From: Acidobacteriota bacterium
GTDB taxonomy: Bacteria > Acidobacteriota > Blastocatellia > Pyrinomonadales > Pyrinomonadaceae
Reading direction: 5' to 3'
Assembly (NCBI GenBank): GCA_025463135.1
Contig: JAOAPY010000052.1
Coordinates: 62,001 to 126,000 of the forward strand
Length of the DNA: 64,000 nucleotides
Part shown: in pieces, positions 6,403 to 18,101 of the stretch
How the letters are laid out: each line of letters starts with the position of its first letter
Position numbering within the stretch: the first letter of the stretch is position 1
Program-made: the position numbers and the translations under genes
The notes under the pieces: generated by a model
Database searches by the model: none
What the model was told of the DNA's origin: nothing
What the model saw: the letters and a program-made list of their open reading frames with translations, nothing else

Positions 6403-9400
6403 CTACTGCGAACAGTCCTGATTGCTGCGAGTGACAGCACTTCCGAAGCGCTGTTGATACTCAGTCGATGTAAGGAACGAACACACCATGCCGCGGAAGT
6501 TGTCAGGTTGACTGTTCAAAACATTCAACCAGAAATCATAGCCACCCTGATCGGGATTGCGGCGCAAGTAACCGTAGTACTGCATCAACACGAACGCGGG
6601 ATTGTATTCACGAGTTTTGAACTCGTTGATTTCGATCACGTCCAGCAACACTTGCGCCCGCGTCTTGCCGTTATTGTTCATCGCATCAATTTGTTGCTGG
6701 CGTTCCGCGGTGTAGGGCGTCAGCCCGGCCGTATCGAACAGCTTGTTGACGAACTGCGTGTTGCTCATCGAGCCGTCGTCGGGATATATGACCTTAAACT
6801 CCGGCCGCGCGACAAAGTTGTTCGCCAAGTTGATCGTGCTCTGCGGCAAGCCTGAACCCCCCACCAACTGCGCTCGATCGGCAATGAATTGCTGGAACGT
6901 GATATTCGCACGCGTGGGTGTACTCGGCCGCGTACCGTAAGCGGCGCGATAGAAGCGATAGACCACGTAGCCGGTCTGTTGAAATTCGAGCTCAATAAAG
7001 AAGGCCGCCGAGACACCGATGCGTTGAGTATGAATGCAGGCTGCGTCCAGACCGCACTGCGTAATCTTCGCAGTCCAAAAATCCCAGCCGCCCGGATCGG
7101 GATTGCGGCTCAGGAAATCGAGATAATGTTGCTTCACGAAATTGCGCGCATCATCGATCACATTTGGATTGCTGATCGTGTAGGTGGCGCTGCGCACCGG
7201 ACTCGGCGTCCAGTTACTCTTAAAGGACCGCGCCTTCAGGGTCAGGCTTTGCGAAATCAAAAGCGGATGGCCGGGCGTGAAGACTGGATCGGTCTCGCTC
7301 GGATCGGCGCCGTTGAACGTGTAGTGAGTCTCGACGCCGCCGGTCAGCTGATTCATTTGCGACGGTGTCGACTGGCCCAGGGTGGTGCCGTCGCCCAATT
7401 GGCCGTTATCATTCTTACCCCACAACCAAAGCGTCCCGTCAGATTTCAAGGCGGCCGAGAACGTTGGACCAAGCCCAACTTTTGTGGCGCCTGAAATACC
7501 ATTGACTACCGCGGGTGTTAATTGCTGATAGATCGTGCCGCCCAGAACGCCGTCGTTGTTGGTGCCCCAGGTCCAGACTCGACCATCGGCGGTTAAGGCA
7601 ATTGAGTGCTGTGAACCACCCGCCACGGCAACCACCCCGGAAATAACTCCAACCTGGGCGGCCGCGGTGTGGTCCCCGTCAAAGGATGTGCCCAACCCTA
7701 ATTGACCATAGGTATTATTGCCCCACGACCAAAGACTGCCATCGCTCTTAATCGCAAAACTGTAGGTGGCTCCGGCACCGGCTGCGATAACGGATGAAAG
7801 CCCATTCACTTGCACTGGAATCACTCGATTGGTCGTCGTACCATCGCCGAGTTGCCCGTTGGAGTTGAAGCCCCAGGCCCAGACCGTGCCGTCGTTCTTT
7901 ACAGCCAAACAATGCGATGCCCCGGCCGCAATCGCGGTCACGCCAGAGAGGCCGTTGACCTGTACCGGCGTGATGCGGAACGTGGGACTCGCGGTATTCA
8001 CGCTGCCAATGCCCCATTGCCAAACAGTACCGTCGGACTTTAAGGCGAGACTGGTAAAGCCACCTGCAGCGACATTCGTAACACCTGACAATCCATTAAC
8101 CTGCGTCAGGGTTGCGCTCGGCTGAGAGTTGGTGTCGCGGCCCAGCTCGCCTCCCTGGTTACTGCCGTTGGTCCAAACGGTGCCGTCACTTTTCCGCACC
8201 AGGTTGTGACCAATGTCGGCAACTATTTGAGTGGCTCCGTCATAACCGTTTTGTACCACCGGAGATTTGTACATGGCCTTGGCCGGATCCGGCACGGGAT
8301 AACCGGCGGCAATACCCAGCTGTGAATAGGAGTTACTGCCCCAGCCCCAGAACCCCTGGGAGGTCTGCGCGATCACATGATTGTTGCCCAACGAAATCGA
8401 TTGGATGGTGGCATCGGCGCTGGCATTGGAGATTCCCACCGTGATGCTTGCCGGATAAGTTCCGCTATCGGGTGTAAATGTCGGTGTCGAGAGCACGCCG
8501 ATCAACGGCGGCGCGGGAGCTGCCTCGCTAACCTCGGACGGCCACCAGTGCGCTTCACCGTCTGTGCCATTGCCCAATCGGCCGCGGCTGCTGTCACCCC
8601 AGGCCCACACAATGCCATTCTGTTGCCGGGCCAGAGAGTGTTGACCGCCGGCAGCAATCGCAGTAATACCCGTGAGCCAGATCACTTGACGCGGAGAGGC
8701 GTGCACTCTTTGGCTGGTATCGAGAAACAAGTCGCTGCCATCTCCCATTTGTCCGCGGCGATTATCACCCCAACACCAGACAGTGCCATTACCGAGGAGC
8801 GCCATCGAATGCTCACCACCAGCCGACACGGCTGTTGCTCCGGTCAAGCTGAGCTGCGCGGGTGTTAGTCGTTTGAAGTCTGTGGTGCCGTCGCCTACCT
8901 GCAGGAAATTGTTACTGCCCCAGCACCAAATCGTTCCATCGGATTTCAGCACCACCGCATGCTCGCCACCGGCACTGATACTAGAAACATTAGTCAGGCC
9001 GGGTACCACTGCCGGCAAAGTGCGACCGCTGGTGGTACCGTCTCCCAACTGTCCCCAGTCATTCGCGCCCCATGCCCAGACGGTCCCGTCCTGCTTCAGC
9101 GCCAGTGAATAGTCACCGCCGGCGCTGATGGCCTTGACGCCGCTGAGCCCAACGACCTGCACCGGCGTACTGTGATTGGTTTTGGTGCCGTCACCGAGTT
9201 GACCAAATTGATTGTCACCCCAGGCCCACACCGTACCGTCAGACTTCAGAGCCAGGCTGGCTCCTCCTTTCGAAATGGCAGTGACCCCGTTGAGTCCAAT
9301 TACTCGTACTGGAAGTGCTCGAGTGGAGGTTGTGCCATCACCCACTCCTCCGGAGTAGTTCGCGCCCCACCCCCAAACTGCGCCATTCGATTTTAGCGCC

Positions 9401-12342
9401 AGGGATTCGCCAAAATTCCCGCTGACGGCAACTATCGAAGTCAAAGTGGTTATCGGCGAGGGGATCAGTTTGGCTCCGCCGAATGTTCCATCACCCAACT
9501 GGCCATAGGAACTGTCTCCCCAGGCAACGAGCAAACCGCCTGGCATGATCGCAAATGAGTGTTGGTACCCTGCTGCGATCCCAATGGCCGCAACTAAGGG
9601 ATGCGGATTGGGAAGGGTATAACTCGCCTGTGCCGTAGTCGTCTTATCTGCTTCCAGAGCGCTTGAAACCACCGCCGAGTTAACGTAATACAAATCAGTG
9701 CCCGGAACAGCAGCTGCGTTCAAAAGCAGGTTTATCGTTACCGAGGCGCCGGGATTGATCGCTCCCACTCCGATCGAAAGTTTTCCATTCACTGGCGGCT
9801 TACAAATACCCTGAGTTGTCGTGCAGGAAATAAAACTGGCTTGCGCCGGCAAGGTGTCGGTCACGGCAATACCTGCCGCCGGATTCTGGCCGCTGTTCCC
9901 CAGCTTAATGGTTAACTGCAGATCCTGTCCGATGCGTACCGGCTGCGGATACGCCGAACTGGAAACCGTAAGATTAGGAGTCCTGGGTAGTGAACGCAGC
10001 GCGTAAGTTACCGTAGGGGCGTTTGTAAGATTAATCGCCGAGGTTTCCGCGGTGTGCGAATCGATGACGTAAGAGTCCCGCTCTCCGCCGCCGATTCCGA
10101 CAACCGGAAATATTTGCGTATTGCCGTCTCCATAGCGAGTAATGATCGTACCGTCACTGCGAAGCTCGATCTCAAAGTTAACCGGGGCGCCGCCGCTGCA
10201 TTGAAAAGTGTTCGGATTGAAATTGCAGGGCACGCCTTGCCAGCGAAAGATGATCCGATTTGGATCCGGCTTGACTACATAAACATCCGCATCGGCCCGG
10301 TGGCTGGTATTGAGATCGAGGTCGTCCCAAAGACCCGCGACCATGCGCGAAGAAGCAACGAAGTCGCGGATGCTGAGCGGATCGCTATCAGGGTGGCTGG
10401 GCGGAAAATAAATCGTGCCATTAGTGGAAACCGAAACGCTCGTAGCGTTGTTCTCAAAAAACGGGAAGTTGAACGGCAGGATGTATCCCACCACTACATC
10501 GTCAGCGCTGATATGCAGCGGCACGCCACCGGTTGAAAGCGCCGCCGGCGGGCCTTCGGTTACGACATAAGGATCGGCGGCGTCCGTACTCACCGTCACC
10601 GGAACCGACGCCGTGGTTTCATTACCTACCTTGTCTTTGGCGGTAATGCTGAGCGTACCCGCGGTGTGCCGGAAAGGAATGCGAACATTTGCAAAATCCG
10701 GTGTGTTTGGCGCGGTTGGAAAAATTGTATCCAGCAGAAATCGCGCGCCGGTTGCCTGATCGGTGAATCTGATCTCGTAAAGCGAAGCCTGGCCAACGCT
10801 GCCGTCGTCACCGGGCGTGGTCCAATTGAGCGTGATGCTGCGGCCCTCTTGCGCCGCTATAGATAAATCCGTCATGGCGGCCGGCGGCGTGGTATCGACG
10901 ATGGTTGAGTGCTGCAAAGAGCCAAGCGCACTGAGTCGACGACCCGTAACCGTGGTCTGATCGAGCGCGGGTTTTAGGTCGCCGCCAAAAAGTATTGCCG
11001 CTCGTAATCGGTTGATGTTGAATTCCGGATGCAACGCCAACACCAGCGCGGCCACGCCTGCCGCATGCGGAGACGCCATCGAAGTACCGTCAGCTGAAGT
11101 GTAAGTATTGCCGGGTGTCGTGCTGAGAATACCTGCCCCCGGCGCTCCTATCTGAACAGTGTGCGAACCTCTGTTACTGAAGTTCGCCAAAGCGTCGGTA
11201 CGAGTGGTCGCCGCTACGGCGATGACGTTGGCTAGATCGTAATTGGCGGGATAGGTGGGAAACTGATTATTGTTTGAGGCCTCGTTACCCGCGGCGACGA
11301 CAAATAAAATTCCCGAAGCATTCAGCGCCTGAATCGCGTCGGCTTCGGCCTGCGAGTACCCGCCGCCGCCATAGGAATTGTTCGTTACGCGGATGTTTGC
11401 TCCCTGTGTTCCTCCGGAGCTGACCCAGCGGTCGCGCATCAGTTTCGCGTAAGCCAAAGCCTTCAGCAGGTCAGCGCTCGATCCGCTATCAGGACCAATA
11501 AATTTCAAAGACATCAGACTGACTTGCCAGTTGACGCCCACCACACCAATGCCGTTGCCTCCAGTGGCGCCCACAGTTCCGGCTACGTGAGTGCCGTGAG
11601 CGTCGACAATTGAACCGTCGGGGTTAGTGCCGGGGCCGTCGTAGACACTGGCGTCGTTGTGAAAGAAGTCATAACCATTGACATCGTCTACGTAGCCGTT
11701 GCCATCGTCGTCGATGCCGTTGCCTGGTATCTCGGTCGGATTGTGCCAGATGTTCGCTTGCAGATCCTGGTGATTGATATCAAGGCCTTCGTCAATGACA
11801 GCGACGACCACGTTGTTGCTGCCGGTCGTCATGTCCCAGGCAGGTTCGGCTTTGATATCGGCGCCGACCGTGCCAAAGACCTGGCCCGTGTTCTTCATCG
11901 CCCACTGATCGCCGTACCGAAGGTCGTTCGGCGCGACATCTCTGTAACGCAGATAATTCGGTTCGGCGTAAAGCACATCCGGACGCGCGCGTAGTGCCGC
12001 GATCGCCTGCTCAGTGAACCGCTGATCCACTTGAGCCAGGCGCAAGCCGTCGACGATTTCCGCCCCAGCCAGCCGTTCGATCGTCAGCGGGATCTCAACT
12101 CCACTTTGCATGATCGACAACTGGGTGGTTCCACCTTTGGCCACCGCCGAGTCCTTGCGAAACCGAACCAGAACTTCACCGGGAACGAAGTGTCGTCGTT
12201 GCTTATGTCCTGCTGAATGTGGATTGTCAGCCGATTGAAAAGCCGCGCGGGACAAGAGCGGCAGCGATGCTGCCAGAACTAACAACCCGACGAGCAAGAG
12301 GACAAGACGCAGGTGAGATAATTGAATACTTTTAATCTTCAA
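6403..12342 (-). CDS. Secreted subtilisin-like (S8) protease with two RCC1 propellers, chitobiase-like domain and DUF4214
   Basis: 1979 residues from a TTG start. Signal peptide about 1-35; S8 propeptide about 50-135 (begins VPGEVLVRFRKDS); catalytic domain about 145-470 with Asp184 (AVIDEGLDINH), His249 (DAHGTHVAG), oxyanion Asn353 (AAGNEA) and Ser421 (GTSMASPHAAG), so the triad is complete. Then come a fibronectin-like region, a discoidin/PEGA-like beta region, and a DUF11/CARDB-like domain (about 800-910). The first block of seven RCC1 repeats (VWAWG-N--GQLGDG) spans about 920-1270. A chitobiase/Fn3-associated-like domain begins near 1290, is interrupted by a second block of seven RCC1 repeats (about 1314-1672), and resumes with HYTFNGADPS. 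DUF4214 occupies about 1725-1979. The protein is probably an exported or surface protease; its substrate is unknown. Family knowledge supports the protease and the propeller folds only. Confidence 0.92.
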   Translation of the reverse strand: MKIKSIQLSHLRLVLLLVGLLVLAASLPLLSRAAFQSADNPHSAGHKQRRHFVPGEVLVRFRKDSAVAKGGTTQLSIMQSGVEIPLTIERLAGAEIVDGLRLAQVDQRFTEQAIAALRARPDVLYAEPNYLRYRDVAPNDLRYGDQWAMKNTGQVFGTVGADIKAEPAWDMTTGSNNVVVAVIDEGLDINHQDLQANIWHNPTEIPGNGIDDDGNGYVDDVNGYDFFHNDASVYDGPGTNPDGSIVDAHGTHVAGTVGATGGNGIGVVGVNWQVSLMSLKFIGPDSGSSADLLKALAYAKLMRDRWVSSGGTQGANIRVTNNSYGGGGYSQAEADAIQALNASGILFVVAAGNEASNNNQFPTYPANYDLANVIAVAATTRTDALANFSNRGSHTVQIGAPGAGILSTTPGNTYTSADGTSMASPHAAGVAALVLALHPEFNINRLRAAILFGGDLKPALDQTTVTGRRLSALGSLQHSTIVDTTPPAAMTDLSIAAQEGRSITLNWTTPGDDGSVGQASLYEIRFTDQATGARFLLDTIFPTAPNTPDFANVRIPFRHTAGTLSITAKDKVGNETTASVPVTVSTDAADPYVVTEGPPAALSTGGVPLHISADDVVVGYILPFNFPFFENNATSVSVSTNGTIYFPPSHPDSDPLSIRDFVASSRMVAGLWDDLDLNTSHRADADVYVVKPDPNRIIFRWQGVPCNFNPNTFQCSGGAPVNFEIELRSDGTIITRYGDGNTQIFPVVGIGGGERDSYVIDSHTAETSAINLTNAPTVTYALRSLPRTPNLTVSSSAYPQPVRIGQDLQLTIKLGNSGQNPAAGIAVTDTLPAQASFISCTTTQGICKPPVNGKLSIGVGAINPGASVTINLLLNAAAVPGTDLYYVNSAVVSSALEADKTTTAQASYTLPNPHPLVAAIGIAAGYQHSFAIMPGGLLVAWGDSSYGQLGDGTFGGAKLIPSPITTLTSIVAVSGNFGESLALKSNGAVWGWGANYSGGVGDGTTSTRALPVRVIGLNGVTAISKGGASLALKSDGTVWAWGDNQFGQLGDGTKTNHSTPVQVVGLSGVKAISAGGDYSLALKQDGTVWAWGANDWGQLGDGTTSGRTLPAVVPGLTNVSSISAGGEHAVVLKSDGTIWCWGSNNFLQVGDGTTDFKRLTPAQLSLTGATAVSAGGEHSMALLGNGTVWCWGDNRRGQMGDGSDLFLDTSQRVHASPRQVIWLTGITAIAAGGQHSLARQQNGIVWAWGDSSRGRLGNGTDGEAHWWPSEVSEAAPAPPLIGVLSTPTFTPDSGTYPASITVGISNASADATIQSISLGNNHVIAQTSQGFWGWGSNSYSQLGIAAGYPVPDPAKAMYKSPVVQNGYDGATQIVADIGHNLVRKSDGTVWTNGSNQGGELGRDTNSQPSATLTQVNGLSGVTNVAAGGFTSLALKSDGTVWQWGIGSVNTASPTFRITPVQVNGLSGVTAIAAGASHCLAVKNDGTVWAWGFNSNGQLGDGTTTNRVIPVQVNGLSSVIAAGAGATYSFAIKSDGSLWSWGNNTYGQLGLGTSFDGDHTAAAQVGVISGVVAVAGGSQHSIALTADGRVWTWGTNNDGVLGGTIYQQLTPAVVNGISGATKVGLGPTFSAALKSDGTLWLWGKNDNGQLGDGTTLGQSTPSQMNQLTGGVETHYTFNGADPSETDPVFTPGHPLLISQSLTLKARSFKSNWTPSPVRSATYTISNPNVIDDARNFVKQHYLDFLSRNPDPGGWDFWTAKITQCGLDAACIHTQRIGVSAAFFIELEFQQTGYVVYRFYRAAYGTRPSTPTRANITFQQFIADRAQLVGGSGLPQSTINLANNFVARPEFKVIYPDDGSMSNTQFVNKLFDTAGLTPYTAERQQQIDAMNNNGKTRAQVLLDVIEINEFKTREYNPAFVLMQYYGYLRRNPDQGGYDFWLNVLNSQPDNFRGMVCSFLTSTEYQQRFGSAVTRSNQDCSQ

Positions 12343-12846
12343 TGCTGTTACATCCTGGATGTTTTATTAAGAACTGGTATCCCGGTCCGACAAATGTCGT
12401 ACTGGCGATGGATACTAACGAATATCTTACCCCGCATCAATTTCTCCTGCGTCGCTCAGCCGGCCAATTCCCATTCGGAGAGGATTACCCCATTTCCAAC
12501 TCGCAGGTAGTGGGTCAGTTTCGCAGCAAATGTCCGACAAACTTTTAGTTTGTCGTAGCGTTACGACAAGCTAAAAAAGCTTATCGGACATCAAACTGAC
12601 CCACTATCCAACTCGCAGGCCCACTTCTACCACATTCAGTTTTCTGCTAAGGTTTGGTGCTTCCACGGTCGGGGCGAGGAACTGAACATCAGCGAGAATG
12701 ACGTAGATAGATGTCTCCGACCGGCTATCGGTTCGCCCGTGTGATCCGGCAACAACCCGCCGCCAGACCAACGGCTGCCACCATAACGGCATCGTAAACG
12801 ACGGTTCGGTGCCCTATATTGACGGATTTGAGAGGTTTTGAGTTCA
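12343..12846. other. Divergent intergenic region carrying a family A element
   Basis: 504 bases lie between the divergent protease and TPR genes, so promoters for both must lie here, although I cannot pick clear hexamers. The centre is occupied by the 99-bp family A element and its flanking 13-bp duplication, described separately. No supportable ORF was found. Confidence 0.6.
12495..12619. mobile_element. Family A palindromic MITE-like element with exact 13-bp target duplication
   Basis: The element spans 12508-12606 (99 bp). Its ends are perfect 14-bp inverted repeats: TAGTGGGTCAGTTT on the left and AAACTGACCCACTA on the right. Inside are two smaller hairpins, TGTCCGACAAACT..AGTTTGTCG and CGACAAGCT..AGCTTATCGGACA, which also pair with each other outward. 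Directly abutting each end is the same 13-mer, TCCAACTCGCAGG, at 12495-12507 and 12607-12619. This is what a transposition target duplication looks like. There is no coding capacity, so movement would require a transposase encoded elsewhere. A related copy is at 16410-16504. Confidence 0.85.
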
Positions 12847-14643
12847 ATGCGACGCTTTCGTTTTATTAGTGCCTTTATTGGTCTGGCTATCCTGATTGGC
12901 CAGTTTGTACCCATTTCCAGCGTTTACGCCCAGACGCCCGCGGGCGATGTAGTCATGGTGCTTTCGTTCGAGAACACCTCGAACCGCCCAGAGTACAACT
13001 GGGTCGGGGAAAGCTTTGCGGACTCGCTGACTGAGTTATTGAGTAAGCCCGGCTTGCTGGTGGTATCGGGCGACGAGCGGGCCCTGGCGTATCAAAGAGT
13101 GGGGCTTCCGGAGACCATGATTCCCTCGCGCGCCACGTCGATCAAGCTGGCCCGCGAGGCGAAAGCGACGATGATTGTGCTGGGCACCTATACCGTCACG
13201 CCGCCTCAGGCGCCGGAGCAAAAAACCGCCAAGGGCAAAACGGAAAAGGACAAATCCTCCGCGGAAGCGTACGTGCAGGTCACCACGCGCGTTATCAAAG
13301 TTAACGAAGGACGGACGCTGGGCGAAGTTCTGGATGGCAGTTGGGCCACCCGCCAGTTCGATTTCGGCGGGGCGCTGACGACACTGCAAAACATCCAGGG
13401 GCGGCTTGCCTATCAAATACTCTATCAACGCGATCGCGCCTTACCTTACTCGCAAAACCAATTGGTCCAGGAAGCGACCAAGATTCCGCCCCAGGCCTTC
13501 GAAGCTTATGTGAAGGCCGTGCAAATAGACGAGCGCGACGAGAAGCGCATCAACTATTTGAAGAATGCCCTCCGCCTTTATGCCGACGCCAACGGCGGCG
13601 GCGTGTATTCACAGGCGGCCTTTGAGCTCGGTCGTTTTTATCTGGCGGATGGAAAGTGGAAAGACGCAACCGAATATTTCACTAAACTGCAGAAGAAAGA
13701 ACCGCATTACGCGGAGGCCGCTTTCTATGCTGGTCTCGCCTATTCGAAGTTGGGCGATTGGGGCCGCGCGCTCGCGTCGCTGGTGCCGCTGGCGACGGAC
13801 TTGCCCTTGATCGGTGTTTACAACAACGCCGGCGCCGTGGCGGTGTACGCTGCCCGAGAGCAAAAAAAGGACAAGGACCAGGAACGACAGCGACTACTAG
13901 CGCAGGGGATCACGTTTCTGCAGCGCGCCGCAGAGTCTTCGCCCGATGATTCAATGGTGCGCTTCAACTATGCCTACGCCTTGTTTCTTTCCAACCGGTT
14001 TACCGAGGCTGCCGATCAACTGCGACCTGTAATAACTTCGGATCCGCGAGATGGGCAGGCCTATTTCATTTTTGCCAAGGCCCTGGAAAAAATCGGCAAG
14101 ACCGAGGGCGCTGAAGCTGCCGACAATCAAGCCCGGCGTTACCTGCAAGCTTACGCCAAGTGGCAGGATGAATGGCAGAAGTCGCAGACGACGTCCAAAC
14201 TTACGCTGCGGATGCGCGACGTGCTGAACCTGGATGACATTACGGATTTAGCGCGCAAGAACTCGGCAGCAGCTGATGCGGCTACAGCGACGCAGGATCT
14301 ACTGGGCAAAGCGCGCGAGCTTTACCAGGCGGGCCGCGATGACGAGGCCTTGCCGGAGTTACATCGCGTCGTGATGATCGAACCGACGAATGCCGAAGCC
14401 TACCTGATGAGCGGTCGCATCAACTTGCGTCGCGGAGATCAGGAAGCGGCGATTGCCGCTCTGAAGACGGCAATCTTCTGGGATCCCAAACTGATCGATG
14501 CGCACATCCTGCTGGGGAAAATCTTCCTGGAACGGGGTGATCGCGGCGAAGCTACGAAGTTTGCGACCAGCGCCATTGGCCTCGATCCCAACAATCAGGA
14601 AGCTATTGCCCTGAAGCGGCAAGTCACGATGGGAAGTAATTAG
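12847..14643 (+). CDS. Secreted TPR protein with TolB/FlgO-like N-terminal domain
   Basis: 598 residues from the ATG. A TTG nine bases upstream is possible, but the AGAGG at 12831 is better spaced for the ATG. The signal peptide ends near AQTPAG. Residues about 35-130 (VVMVLSFENTSNRPEYNW, then VGESFADSLTELLS, LLVVSGDERALAY) resemble the TolB-amino-terminal/FlgO-type domain found before TPR arrays. A Lys/Glu-rich charged insert follows (KTAKGKTEKDKSS). Tetratricopeptide repeats cover about 200-430 and, after a gap, about 480-590. It is probably a periplasmic scaffold protein. The NfeD-like gene follows 57 bases downstream on the same strand and may be co-transcribed. The partner and exact role are unknown. 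Confidence 0.85.
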   Translation: MRRFRFISAFIGLAILIGQFVPISSVYAQTPAGDVVMVLSFENTSNRPEYNWVGESFADSLTELLSKPGLLVVSGDERALAYQRVGLPETMIPSRATSIKLAREAKATMIVLGTYTVTPPQAPEQKTAKGKTEKDKSSAEAYVQVTTRVIKVNEGRTLGEVLDGSWATRQFDFGGALTTLQNIQGRLAYQILYQRDRALPYSQNQLVQEATKIPPQAFEAYVKAVQIDERDEKRINYLKNALRLYADANGGGVYSQAAFELGRFYLADGKWKDATEYFTKLQKKEPHYAEAAFYAGLAYSKLGDWGRALASLVPLATDLPLIGVYNNAGAVAVYAAREQKKDKDQERQRLLAQGITFLQRAAESSPDDSMVRFNYAYALFLSNRFTEAADQLRPVITSDPRDGQAYFIFAKALEKIGKTEGAEAADNQARRYLQAYAKWQDEWQKSQTTSKLTLRMRDVLNLDDITDLARKNSAAADAATATQDLLGKARELYQAGRDDEALPELHRVVMIEPTNAEAYLMSGRINLRRGDQEAAIAALKTAIFWDPKLIDAHILLGKIFLERGDRGEATKFATSAIGLDPNNQEAIALKRQVTMGSN

Positions 14644-14700: not shown

Positions 14701-14979
14701 ATGGTCCTTGCTTTTGTGTTTGTCGGCCTCATCCTGTCGCTCAGCGCACTCTTTCTCGCTGGTCTTTCCCGTCACAAAAAATCCGCGACTGGCGATCTGA
14801 AGATTATCGGCGCCATTGGCTCGGTTGAAAGCGGACTGGATCCTGAAGGCTCAGTAATCATCAACGGCGAACTCTGGCGCGCGCGACTTGAAAAGGGCGG
14901 CGTACTACCAGCCCGGGATCGAGTGCGCGTCGTCGGGCTGCAAGGGCATTTGATACTCGTAGAACCCTTGTCCAATTAA
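14701..14979 (+). CDS. Short NfeD-family membrane protein (single TM plus OB fold)
   Basis: 92 residues. An N-terminal hydrophobic helix (about 2-22) is followed by the NfeD C-terminal OB-fold pattern: G-IGSVESGLDPEGSV, INGELWRAR, and a terminal RVRVVGLQGHLILVEP. The length fits the short NfeD1b-type class, which lacks the ClpP-like protease domain. These proteins usually work with stomatin/prohibitin-type membrane proteins, but no slipin gene is adjacent here; the upstream neighbour is the TPR gene. The membrane-anchored OB-fold assignment is firm. The physiological role is an inference. Confidence 0.85.
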   Translation: MVLAFVFVGLILSLSALFLAGLSRHKKSATGDLKIIGAIGSVESGLDPEGSVIINGELWRARLEKGGVLPARDRVRVVGLQGHLILVEPLSN

Positions 14980-15539: not shown

Positions 15540-15752
15540 CTCATTTCCAGAAAAAACTTTTTTGTGGCATGCGATGTGCTGAAGGGTAAGACGGCACGCA
15601 CGGAACACATCACGCGATTGACTGTGCCCCCGCCGCCACCCCTCCTATGAGCGCCGCCTGCCGCTGCGCCATCTGCCCTCCGAGCAACCCTTCAGAGCTC
15701 TCCTTCCGAAATTTGAACCCAGCCAGCAATGGCTGGGTTCTCCTGCGTTTGG
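15540..15752 (+). ncRNA. Candidate structured RNA, copy 1 of a tandem pair
   Basis: About 210 bases that recur 330 bases downstream. Shared blocks include TTCCAGAAAAA, GTGGCA, GTGCTGA, CGGCACGCACGGAA, GTGCCCCCGCCGCC, a nearly identical block of roughly 45 bases beginning GAGCGCCGCCTGCCGCTGCG, and a 3' hairpin CCCAGCC-agcaat-GGCTGGG followed by TTCTCCTGCGTTT. The hairpin stem differs from copy 2 by a compensatory C-G to T-A change, which argues for selection on RNA structure. GGCAC and GTGCC could pair around a variable loop in both copies. The terminal hairpin and following T-rich tract suggest plus-strand transcription. The promoter-equivalent position (TAACAC about 15524) is weaker than in copy 2. 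No known RNA family was recognised. Confidence 0.5.
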
Positions 15753-15754
15753 GG

Positions 15755-15821
15755 TAGTGGTTCAGTTTGATTTGTGGCACGCGCATCTTGCGCGTGGATC
15801 ACGGGCGGGACGCCGTGCCAC
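15755..15821. repeat. Hybrid repeat: family A terminal repeat joined to a GTGGCAC...GTGCCAC hairpin
   Basis: TAGTGGTTCAGTTTGAT at 15755-15771 is a one-mismatch copy of the family A terminus. Instead of the family A interior it runs into GTGGCAC (15774-15780), a tight ACGCGC-atct-TGCGCGT hairpin, and a closing GTGCCAC (15815-15821). The latter arm, GGGACGCCGTGCCAC, resembles the GACGCCCGTGCCAC segments inside two genes (34470-34491 and 57746-57770). It lies between the two candidate RNA copies. Confidence 0.55.
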
Positions 15822-15854
15822 ACAGGCCGACAGCTGCTGTACAACGTGGCTCCC

Positions 15855-15860
15855 TATACT
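15855..15860 (+). promoter_or_regulatory. Putative -10 box for RNA copy 2
   Basis: TATACT sits about 8-12 bases before the start of the repeated RNA unit. No good -35 hexamer is visible 16-18 bases upstream. The flanking bases GCTCCCTA and CATTCCAG align with copy 1, so the duplication includes the promoter region, but copy 1 has TAACAC at this place. Confidence 0.4.
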
Positions 15861-15866
15861 TAATGG

Positions 15867-16080
15867 GCCGCACATTCCAGAAAAAGATTTCGTGGCACAC
15901 GACGTGCTGAGCTATACATCGGCACGCACGGAAAACTTGAAACAGTTGAAAGTGCCCCCGCCGCCTTCTTCCCTCTGAGCGCCGCCTGCCGCTGCGCCAG
16001 CCGCCCGCCGAGCATCCCTACAGAGTTCACACCAATATTCGAACCCAGTCAGAAATGACTGGGTTCTCCTGCTTTTAAGG
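15867..16080 (+). ncRNA. Candidate structured RNA, copy 2 of a tandem pair
   Basis: Second copy of the unit at 15540-15752, with the same order of conserved blocks. It ends in CCCAGTC-agaaat-GACTGGG, then TTCTCCTGCTTTT, a plausible intrinsic terminator. Relative to copy 1, the stem has a T-A pair where copy 1 has C-G, and only the loop also changes. Upstream is a good TATACT box. A minus-strand ORF overlapping this region (about 15912-16166) translates to low-complexity Ala/Gly/Arg and is not credible. The role is unknown; trans-acting RNAs are often kept in tandem copies, but that is inference. Confidence 0.5.
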
Positions 16081-16523: not shown

Positions 16524-18101
16524 ATGTTGAATCCTGCGTGCTCTGCTAAACTCGCGCGGATGAGGGCAGCGGCGCGGCACAACATGACGGATTGGGGGTT
16601 GGCGCTTCTCTCCGCCCTGCTCCTGGTGCTCGCATTTCCTGATTTCAATCTATGGATCCTGGCCTGGGTCGGTCTGGTTCCTCTCCTGATCGCAATTGCG
16701 CGCCGGCCCCTCTCAAAACGTGCTTTCTGCCTCAGCTGGATTACCGGCAGTGCCTTCTTCTACATAACCTGTTACTGGCTCACCTATTCAATGATCCACT
16801 ACGCGGGAATCCCCGCGCCGCTGGCCTATGCTCTGTTGCTTCCAGGCGCATTGCTGCTCGGGGTGTTCCCTGGTGTGTTTGGCATGGCCCTGGCGCGTCT
16901 GATCAGGACCTGGGGTACCGGGGCCCTATTCGTTGCGCCCTTGTTGTGGGTGACACTGGAATGGCTACGACTAAACGTGACGGGCCAATTGTGGAATGCT
17001 ATTGGATACTCTCAGGCCTTTCATCCCAGTCTCATTCGTGCAGCGAGTTGGGGCGGTGTATATGCCGTTGGCTTGATGATCGTCGCCGTTAACGCTGCGA
17101 TCGCTTTCGCTCTGCTGCGGCGAACAATTCAGGGGCTCGTCGTTGCGGGACTTGTGATTGTGGGTACGGTTGGTTTTTGCGTCGGGGTAGCCGCCATTTC
17201 AGATTTGCTGGACGCTAACACTGCCAGCGCTCAGAGTCCCATCGTAGTCGTAGCGCTACAGCCCAACGTTCCGATGGAGTTTAATAAAAGCGCGCCGCAG
17301 ATGGATGAACTGTTCAATCGCCACATTACTCAAAGCGAAAAGGGCTTAAGCCAGGCAAAGGATGAAAAGGGATCGCGTCTGGTTATCTGGCCCGAGTCAC
17401 CCATGAATTTCACTTACGGCACCGACCCGCAACTGCGCGATCGTTTGTCGCAATTTGTTCAGCGGAACCACACTTCGCTGATTCTCAACTCACAAGAGCC
17501 CGCAGCCAACGACGGCTCTTACAACTCAGCCCTCTTGATTAATGAAGAAGGTCGTCTCACAGCACAATATGATAAGATTCGCCTGATGCCGTTCGGCGAG
17601 TATGTGCCCTTGCCACGGTGGTTACCGGGCTCGGATCGAGTCAGAGCAATTGTCGGCGGGTTTACTCCGGGCAGTCGCTACACATTAATGCCCGTGGGCA
17701 CGATGAGCGCGGGAGTTTTTATTTGCATTGAATCCGCGTATCCGTGGATTCCTCGAACCCTCGCGGCGGAGGGCGCGGAAGTACTCATCAATATTTCGAA
17801 CGATGGTTATCTGGGGCCAACGCCGGTGATGCGACAGCACCTGGCTAATACCATCTTTCGCGCGGTTGAAAACGGCCGCCCGGTATTGCGAGTCACTAAT
17901 ACCGGCATCACCGCCTACATCGATGGGCGCGGCAAAGTGGTTGACGCAACCAATGGATTTCAGGAAGAGGTTCGAACCTGGACAATCGCGGGACGAGGAA
18001 ATAGAAAGACGATTTACACAAAGTTTGGCGACTGGTTTGTTGGCCTTTGCGGTGTGTTGAGTTTGTTGTTGATTGCGTTGTCGTTTAGAACGAGGGTGTA
18101 G
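16524..18101 (+). CDS. lnt: Apolipoprotein N-acyltransferase
   Basis: 525 residues. The enzyme transfers the third acyl chain to the N-terminal Cys of lipoproteins in the inner membrane, the last step of lipoprotein maturation in diderm bacteria. Several membrane segments cover about 25-230, followed by a periplasmic nitrilase-like domain. The triad can be read as Glu291 (IWPESPMNF), Lys351 (YDKIRLMPFGEYVP) and Cys401 (FICIESAYP), with a typical C-terminal TM helix. The length fits the family. The first ATG (16524) is used, but in-frame ATGs at 16560 and 16584 could also be the start, and no strong ribosome-binding site decides. The stop codon lies inside a 7-bp-period array (18094 onwards). 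prfB follows 120 bases downstream. Confidence 0.95.
   Translation: MLNPACSAKLARMRAAARHNMTDWGLALLSALLLVLAFPDFNLWILAWVGLVPLLIAIARRPLSKRAFCLSWITGSAFFYITCYWLTYSMIHYAGIPAPLAYALLLPGALLLGVFPGVFGMALARLIRTWGTGALFVAPLLWVTLEWLRLNVTGQLWNAIGYSQAFHPSLIRAASWGGVYAVGLMIVAVNAAIAFALLRRTIQGLVVAGLVIVGTVGFCVGVAAISDLLDANTASAQSPIVVVALQPNVPMEFNKSAPQMDELFNRHITQSEKGLSQAKDEKGSRLVIWPESPMNFTYGTDPQLRDRLSQFVQRNHTSLILNSQEPAANDGSYNSALLINEEGRLTAQYDKIRLMPFGEYVPLPRWLPGSDRVRAIVGGFTPGSRYTLMPVGTMSAGVFICIESAYPWIPRTLAAEGAEVLINISNDGYLGPTPVMRQHLANTIFRAVENGRPVLRVTNTGITAYIDGRGKVVDATNGFQEEVRTWTIAGRGNRKTIYTKFGDWFVGLCGVLSLLLIALSFRTRV

Follow-up and report, generated by a model that had tools for sequence, protein, structure and literature searches.

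Comparative sequence analysis of a 64,000-nt stretch of DNA from a member of the Pyrinomonadaceae (hereafter, the window) indicates that two similar units on its plus strand are each a non-coding RNA gene. Both begin with a conserved block that looks like an RpoN (sigma-54) promoter, and both belong to an RNA family that has a representative in every genus of the Pyrinomonadaceae. The RNA is predicted from the same comparisons to be most likely about 147-163 nt long, and it is probably a signal-triggered regulator of other genes.

The two units occupy window positions 15563-15751 and 15891-16077, are about 77% identical, and lie 328 nt apart; the boundaries of 15540-16080 given in the original prediction are correct to within about 25 nt. 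Identity is 76% in the alignment of 15553-15700 with 15881-16028 and 84% in the block containing the 3' hairpin (15706-15750 and 16032-16076). A search of the source genome with the unit retrieved a single further match, the second copy (E = 3e-38), and the genome contains two copies. Both are located in a 1.5-kb gap between the gene of an NfeD-domain protein (14701..14979, +), which is an upstream neighbor in many homologous loci, and the conserved downstream neighbor lnt (apolipoprotein N-acyltransferase; 16524..18101, +), which starts 447 nt after the end of copy 2. Farther upstream is a TPR-repeat protein gene (12838..14643, +), conserved in most homologous loci, and downstream of lnt the window contains prfB-like and then ftsK-like ORFs. 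The spacer between the copies includes an imperfect inverted repeat, GTGGCACGCGCATCTTGCGCGTGG...CCGTGCCAC (15773-15822). With 43 matches in the same genome it is a dispersed repeat, so the two copies are separated in part by inserted repeat DNA. Elsewhere in the window, a 1979-aa ORF (6403-12342, minus strand) resembles by eye a subtilisin-type protease followed by RCC1-like repeats.

An initial DNA search gave matches at E <= 0.01 in 29 of 60 relatives, mostly from the same family, and about 29 full-length units were aligned to build a covariance model, R1. Matches to R1 were found in 103 of 119 Pyrinomonadaceae genomes, in 66 of the 69 genomes of good quality, and in all 29 genera. The hosts are Pyrinomonadaceae (Blastocatellia), among them the isolate Pyrinomonas methylaliphatogenes K22. 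No R1 match was found in other families of the class, and none could be assigned with confidence across 396 genomes spread over the phylum. A model restricted to the transcript reproduced this distribution, with copy 1 scoring 125.6 bits; its one match outside the family (E = 0.04) was treated as noise. Short BLAST matches (L026, L028, and L030) had hinted at distant homologs in other families of the class, but these scored at most 3.7 bits with the model and were rejected. Two weak matches, G074:C46:2138-2257 (41 bits) and G106:C7:231100-231232 (28 bits), may be diverged paralogs. The covariance-model search, proposed as a check along with the original prediction, thus yielded about 120 homologous units in 29 genera, a spread that excludes chance. 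The central claim of that prediction, a duplicated small-RNA gene, is borne out by this presence throughout the family and by the covariation described below.

Most genomes carry one copy of the gene. Tandem pairs have several origins: a recent one in one genus, an older one in the clade to which the window belongs, and a further one in another genus. The predicted tandem pair is therefore real here, but the layout is not a specific property of the gene, since most genomes have a single copy. The genomic context is conserved, as 90 of the 101 examined units are flanked by the TPR gene and lnt, all in the same orientation. In 7 of the 101 units neither of these genes is adjacent, and in some of the seven the genes that follow are on the opposite strand. 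Units found away from the TPR-lnt locus identify the element as a gene of its own that is mostly kept in one place; judging from these contexts, it is independent and not tied to a downstream gene.

The predicted RNA of copy 1 is about 161 nt long (15591..15751, +), if it starts 12 nt past the -12 element and ends where conservation ends. Helix P2 (15592-15595/15632-15635) surrounds hairpin P3 (15598-15603/15622-15627), both supported by covariation and folding; together they span 15592..15635. They overlap a near-invariant C-rich stretch (15628..15646) with low pairing probability outside P2, which comprises a CCCC internal loop (15628-15631), the GCCG of the P2 3' strand (15632-15635), and an unpaired segment (15636-15646). 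Hairpin P4 (15647..15672) has an invariant TGCC loop and double-sided changes in 7 of its 10 pairs. Then follow a conserved C/U-rich stretch with CCGAGC and CCUUCAG (15673..15714), mostly unpaired according to conservation and folding, the terminator-like 3' hairpin P5 (15715..15740), in which 9 of 10 pairs show double-sided changes, and a conserved 3' tail, TCCTGCGTTTG (15741..15751). The RNA of copy 2, delimited by the transcript-only model and folding, is predicted to be about 159 nt long (15919..16077, +). Here, covariation and folding support both P2 (15920-15923/15960-15963), enclosing P3 within 15920..15963, and the terminator-like P5 (16041..16066); P4 (15975..16000) is supported by covariation, and the minimum-energy fold of this copy differs around it.

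In 50 diverse transcripts, 94.8% of the cells in the four helices are paired, and 20 of 29 pairs show double-sided changes. None of 500 shuffles scored as high, and sliding the helices by 1-3 columns reduced the paired fraction to 33-40%. On 29 sequences the corresponding values are 94% of cells and 14 pairs. P4 and P5 differ greatly in sequence among homologs but stay paired, P3 switches from CACG/CGTG to CTTG/CAAG, and P2 hardly changes apart from C-G/U-G variation. Compensatory exchanges are observed even between the two copies in the window: ATG/CAT in P4 of copy 1 (15647-15649/15670-15672) corresponds to CTG/CAG in copy 2 (15975-15977/15998-16000), and CCCAGCC/GGCTGGG in P5 to CCCAGTC/GACTGGG. 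The latter C-G to T-A exchange in the terminator-like stem, already noted in the original prediction, is real, and the stem is one of the four helices supported by covariation. Thermodynamic folds of individual homologous transcripts contain on average the same helices as covariation, and leave open the near-invariant patches CCCC, CAUCACUUCU, the P4 loop YUGCC, CC..CC, CCUUC, and UCCUUCC. Both copies in the window also fold better than shuffled sequences (z of -2.7 and -2.9). Against a tree-simulated null, two P5 pairs reach E < 0.05 over all column pairs and 13 would pass if only proposed pairs were considered (arithmetic from the printed values), in a test whose power is limited by a deep two-clade split that lets unrelated clade-marker columns score highly. 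A long-range TGGC/GCCA pairing proposed by RNAalifold was rejected, as it uses promoter bases upstream of +1 and shows no covariation. The 3' end predicted to be terminator-like is a conserved helix, but what follows it is not the tail of a textbook terminator: in UCUCCYGCNUUU, U accounts for 1.6 of the first five bases after the stem. The tails in the window (15741-15751 and 16067-16077) are conserved in sequence, which is unusual for a plain terminator.

The first conserved block of the unit, 16 bases of the form TGGCAY-N6-TGCW, occurs with unchanged spacing in 97 of 101 units. In its fuller form, TGGCAC(G/A)-N4-(G)TGC(T/A), GG and GC are separated by 10 bp, the canonical sigma-54 spacing, and the block looks like an RpoN site, that is, a promoter of the -24/-12 type. 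It agrees with TGGCAC-N5-TTGCW, the first T of TTGC being usually replaced by G, as in glmZ. Conservation among homologs places the element of copy 1, TGGCATG-CGAT-GTGCT, at 15565..15580 (+; GG at -25/-24, GC at -13/-12) and that of copy 2, TGGCACA-CGAC-GTGCT, at 15893..15908 (+). As fits a promoter, the spacer from -11 to -1 varies in sequence. The distance from -12 to helix P2 is 12 nt in 84 units and 11 nt in 13, which puts the predicted start one base ahead of P2. The duplicated conserved unit originally given as about 210 bases does exist, but the RNA itself would be about 160 nt long, as the first block is the putative promoter. Sequences 5' of TGGCAC are unrelated between genera and often consist of simple repeats or low-complexity DNA. 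The pattern has two matches in the window, both of them the units, with 0.7 expected. Genome-wide it is not enriched (17 matches, compared with 27 for the reversed pattern), and therefore the case for a promoter rests on positional conservation, not on rarity. The source genome carries rpoN, as do 58 of 60 relatives, and encodes about 36 strong sigma-54 activator domains; Hfq was found in 29 of 30 genomes checked.

The most likely explanation of these observations is a stand-alone sRNA gene under the control of sigma-54 and an activator, with an RNA of about 160 nt acting in trans via its C/U-rich patches. The TGGCACG-N4-GTGCW element would be bound by sigma-54 RNA polymerase and opened, in response to a signal, by an activator of the enhancer-binding type. 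Transcription starting about 12 nt past the GC element would produce an RNA of about 160 nt with P2 over P3, then P4, then P5, unpaired C/U-rich patches between them, and a 3' hairpin protecting the molecule. The patches would probably pair with G-rich target sites, for example in translation-start regions of mRNAs, perhaps with Hfq, and several mRNAs may be regulated in trans. Extra copies, whether in tandem or dispersed, would increase the dose or make it more diverse, as for Qrr or GlmY/Z. Duplexes of the sRNA with the start regions of the neighboring TPR, NfeD, lnt, and ftsK genes gave no signal. The retention of most units at the TPR-lnt locus counts against a purely trans-acting gene, which needs no fixed place.

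As originally supposed, the RNA falls outside known families. At the gathering threshold, Rfam has no match in the window and the permissive threshold adds only chance-level ones; in ten homologous loci nothing except tRNAs was detected. We rate it as a new family with an RpoN promoter like those of Qrr, GlmY/Z, and CrcZ; by covariance model it belongs to none of these families. GlmY/GlmZ of Enterobacteriaceae share with it a sigma-54-type promoter, a structured sRNA of similar size, and sibling copies. Moreover, among the mapped sigma-54 sites of Salmonella (PMC3844500), that of the sRNA gene glmZ reads TGGCACGTTATGTGCA, with the same GTGC variant of the -12 element as in the units described here. 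However, GlmY/GlmZ belong to another phylum and have another fold, and the siblings here are often adjacent; there is no evidence for GlmY/GlmZ-like control of glmS or for a link to RapZ. Qrr1-5 of Vibrio are multi-copy sRNAs with a conserved unpaired core, controlled by the sigma-54 activator LuxO (PMC4211561). The resemblance lies in activator control, multiple copies, and the unpaired core, whereas there is no sequence or covariance match, one copy per genome is usual here, and no link to quorum sensing is known. Acido-1 (RF01686) and Acido-Lenti-1 (RF01687), candidate ncRNAs of Acidobacteria from comparative genomics (PMC2864571), match neither the window nor the ten homologous loci. 6S RNA is likewise near-universal, about 180 nt long, and of the abundant type, but this identity was rejected, as the genome encodes its 6S RNA elsewhere (G000:C7:109185-109370). 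CrcZ/CrcY of Pseudomonas are also sigma-54-dependent RNAs with repeated unpaired motifs. CrcZ is longer and carries A-rich Hfq/Crc motifs, in contrast to the C-rich patches of the Pyrinomonadaceae RNA.

In the main rival explanation, the same patches titrate a protein: the sigma-54-driven RNA would sequester an RNA-binding protein via its C-rich patches, as CrcZ does with Hfq. Each molecule has several near-invariant single-stranded C-rich patches, tandem copies supply more of them, and their letter-level conservation exceeds what pairing with a few fast-changing targets needs. However, the patches resemble neither the A-rich repeats of CrcZ nor the GGA loops of CsrB/RsmY, there are few repeated motifs, and no candidate protein binding C-rich RNA was identified. 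We regard this explanation as possible but clearly the less probable one. The same modest credence applies to its broader form, in which a family-wide sigma-54-controlled RNA, part of a new ribonucleoprotein, connects global gene control with an activator that senses the envelope or nutrients. It is unlikely that the RNA is a cis-acting leader or attenuator, that is, the start of the lnt transcript with the 3' hairpin as a regulated terminator. The terminator-like end and the position of 90 of 101 units upstream of lnt on the same strand would fit such a role, but some units are found elsewhere without a codirectional gene behind them (L040, L049), and no conserved alternative pairing opens P5. 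Besides, a leader has no need of two full tandem units with two promoters, or of the long distance to lnt behind copy 2.

Two further explanations concern the boundaries and the coding capacity of the unit. A reading along the lines of the original prediction, in which GGCAC and GTGCT form a 5' hairpin of the sRNA and a sigma-70-type promoter lies upstream of it, now seems very unlikely. GGCAC can indeed pair with GTGCT, and TATACT, originally taken for the promoter of copy 2, is present upstream of it at 15855-15860. But no counterpart of TATACT is conserved in homologs, and no sigma-70 promoter-like site was found near it on the plus strand. In the homologs, -10 and -35 elements are not conserved, and repeats abut the block. 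Position 18 of the block is T in 62% and A in 36% of cases, following the W of the sigma-54 consensus, while its would-be partner G4 is invariant; position 14, with C as its would-be partner, is A or C in 21%. Both the outer and the inner pairs of the hairpin thus break in many homologs without compensation; the hairpin was rejected as an RNA structure in favor of a promoter, and the block and its spacing are of the sigma-54 type. A short conserved peptide or a dual-function RNA is still more improbable. Short ORFs of 35-50 codons exist in some of the units, and the longest ORF has a median of 35 aa, but no reading frame is shared among the homologous units, their lengths fall into all residues modulo 3, and substitutions preserve base pairs. 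The initial view that no protein reading makes sense is therefore upheld.

Taking the favored reading of a sigma-54-controlled sRNA, the literature offers little for comparison. We found no described sRNA in Pyrinomonadaceae, no paper on Pyrinomonas and small RNAs, none treating sRNA and RpoN together in Acidobacteriota, and essentially nothing on RpoN control in Pyrinomonadaceae. Sigma-54-driven sRNAs are best known from Gammaproteobacteria, and the present comparisons suggest that they probably occur in a distant phylum as well. Pyrinomonadaceae are a large lineage of soil and engineered environments. An RNA present in every genus of the family, with a promoter legible in DNA, would provide a direct handle on RpoN signaling in Acidobacteriota, and P. 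methylaliphatogenes K22 is a culturable host.

Several minor observations concern the region upstream of the putative promoter. Apart from the end of the TPR gene, no family-wide enhancer (UAS) motif was found within 250 nt upstream; the conserved word TGTTCCAAATAGTGTAAC, shared by half of the family and considered as an enhancer, encodes the C-terminus of the TPR protein together with the stop codon. Genome G020, which is 91% complete and in which no rpoN was found, has one copy at the lnt locus (L093:3622-3790) that has lost the sigma-54 block and another, elsewhere (L049:6007-6189), in which the block is retained. In half of the family (e.g., L048, L094, and L096), conservation continues past the TPR stop into noncoding nucleotides (TAG-TGTAAC). 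These lie about 160 nt before TGGCAC and are a possible enhancer site. Finally, in several genera (e.g., L044, L050, L143, and window 15547-15558) a TTTCC(A/T)GGAAA palindrome or TTCCAGAAAA is located about 10-20 nt upstream of TGGCAC, and in this part of the family it could be a regulator site beside the promoter.
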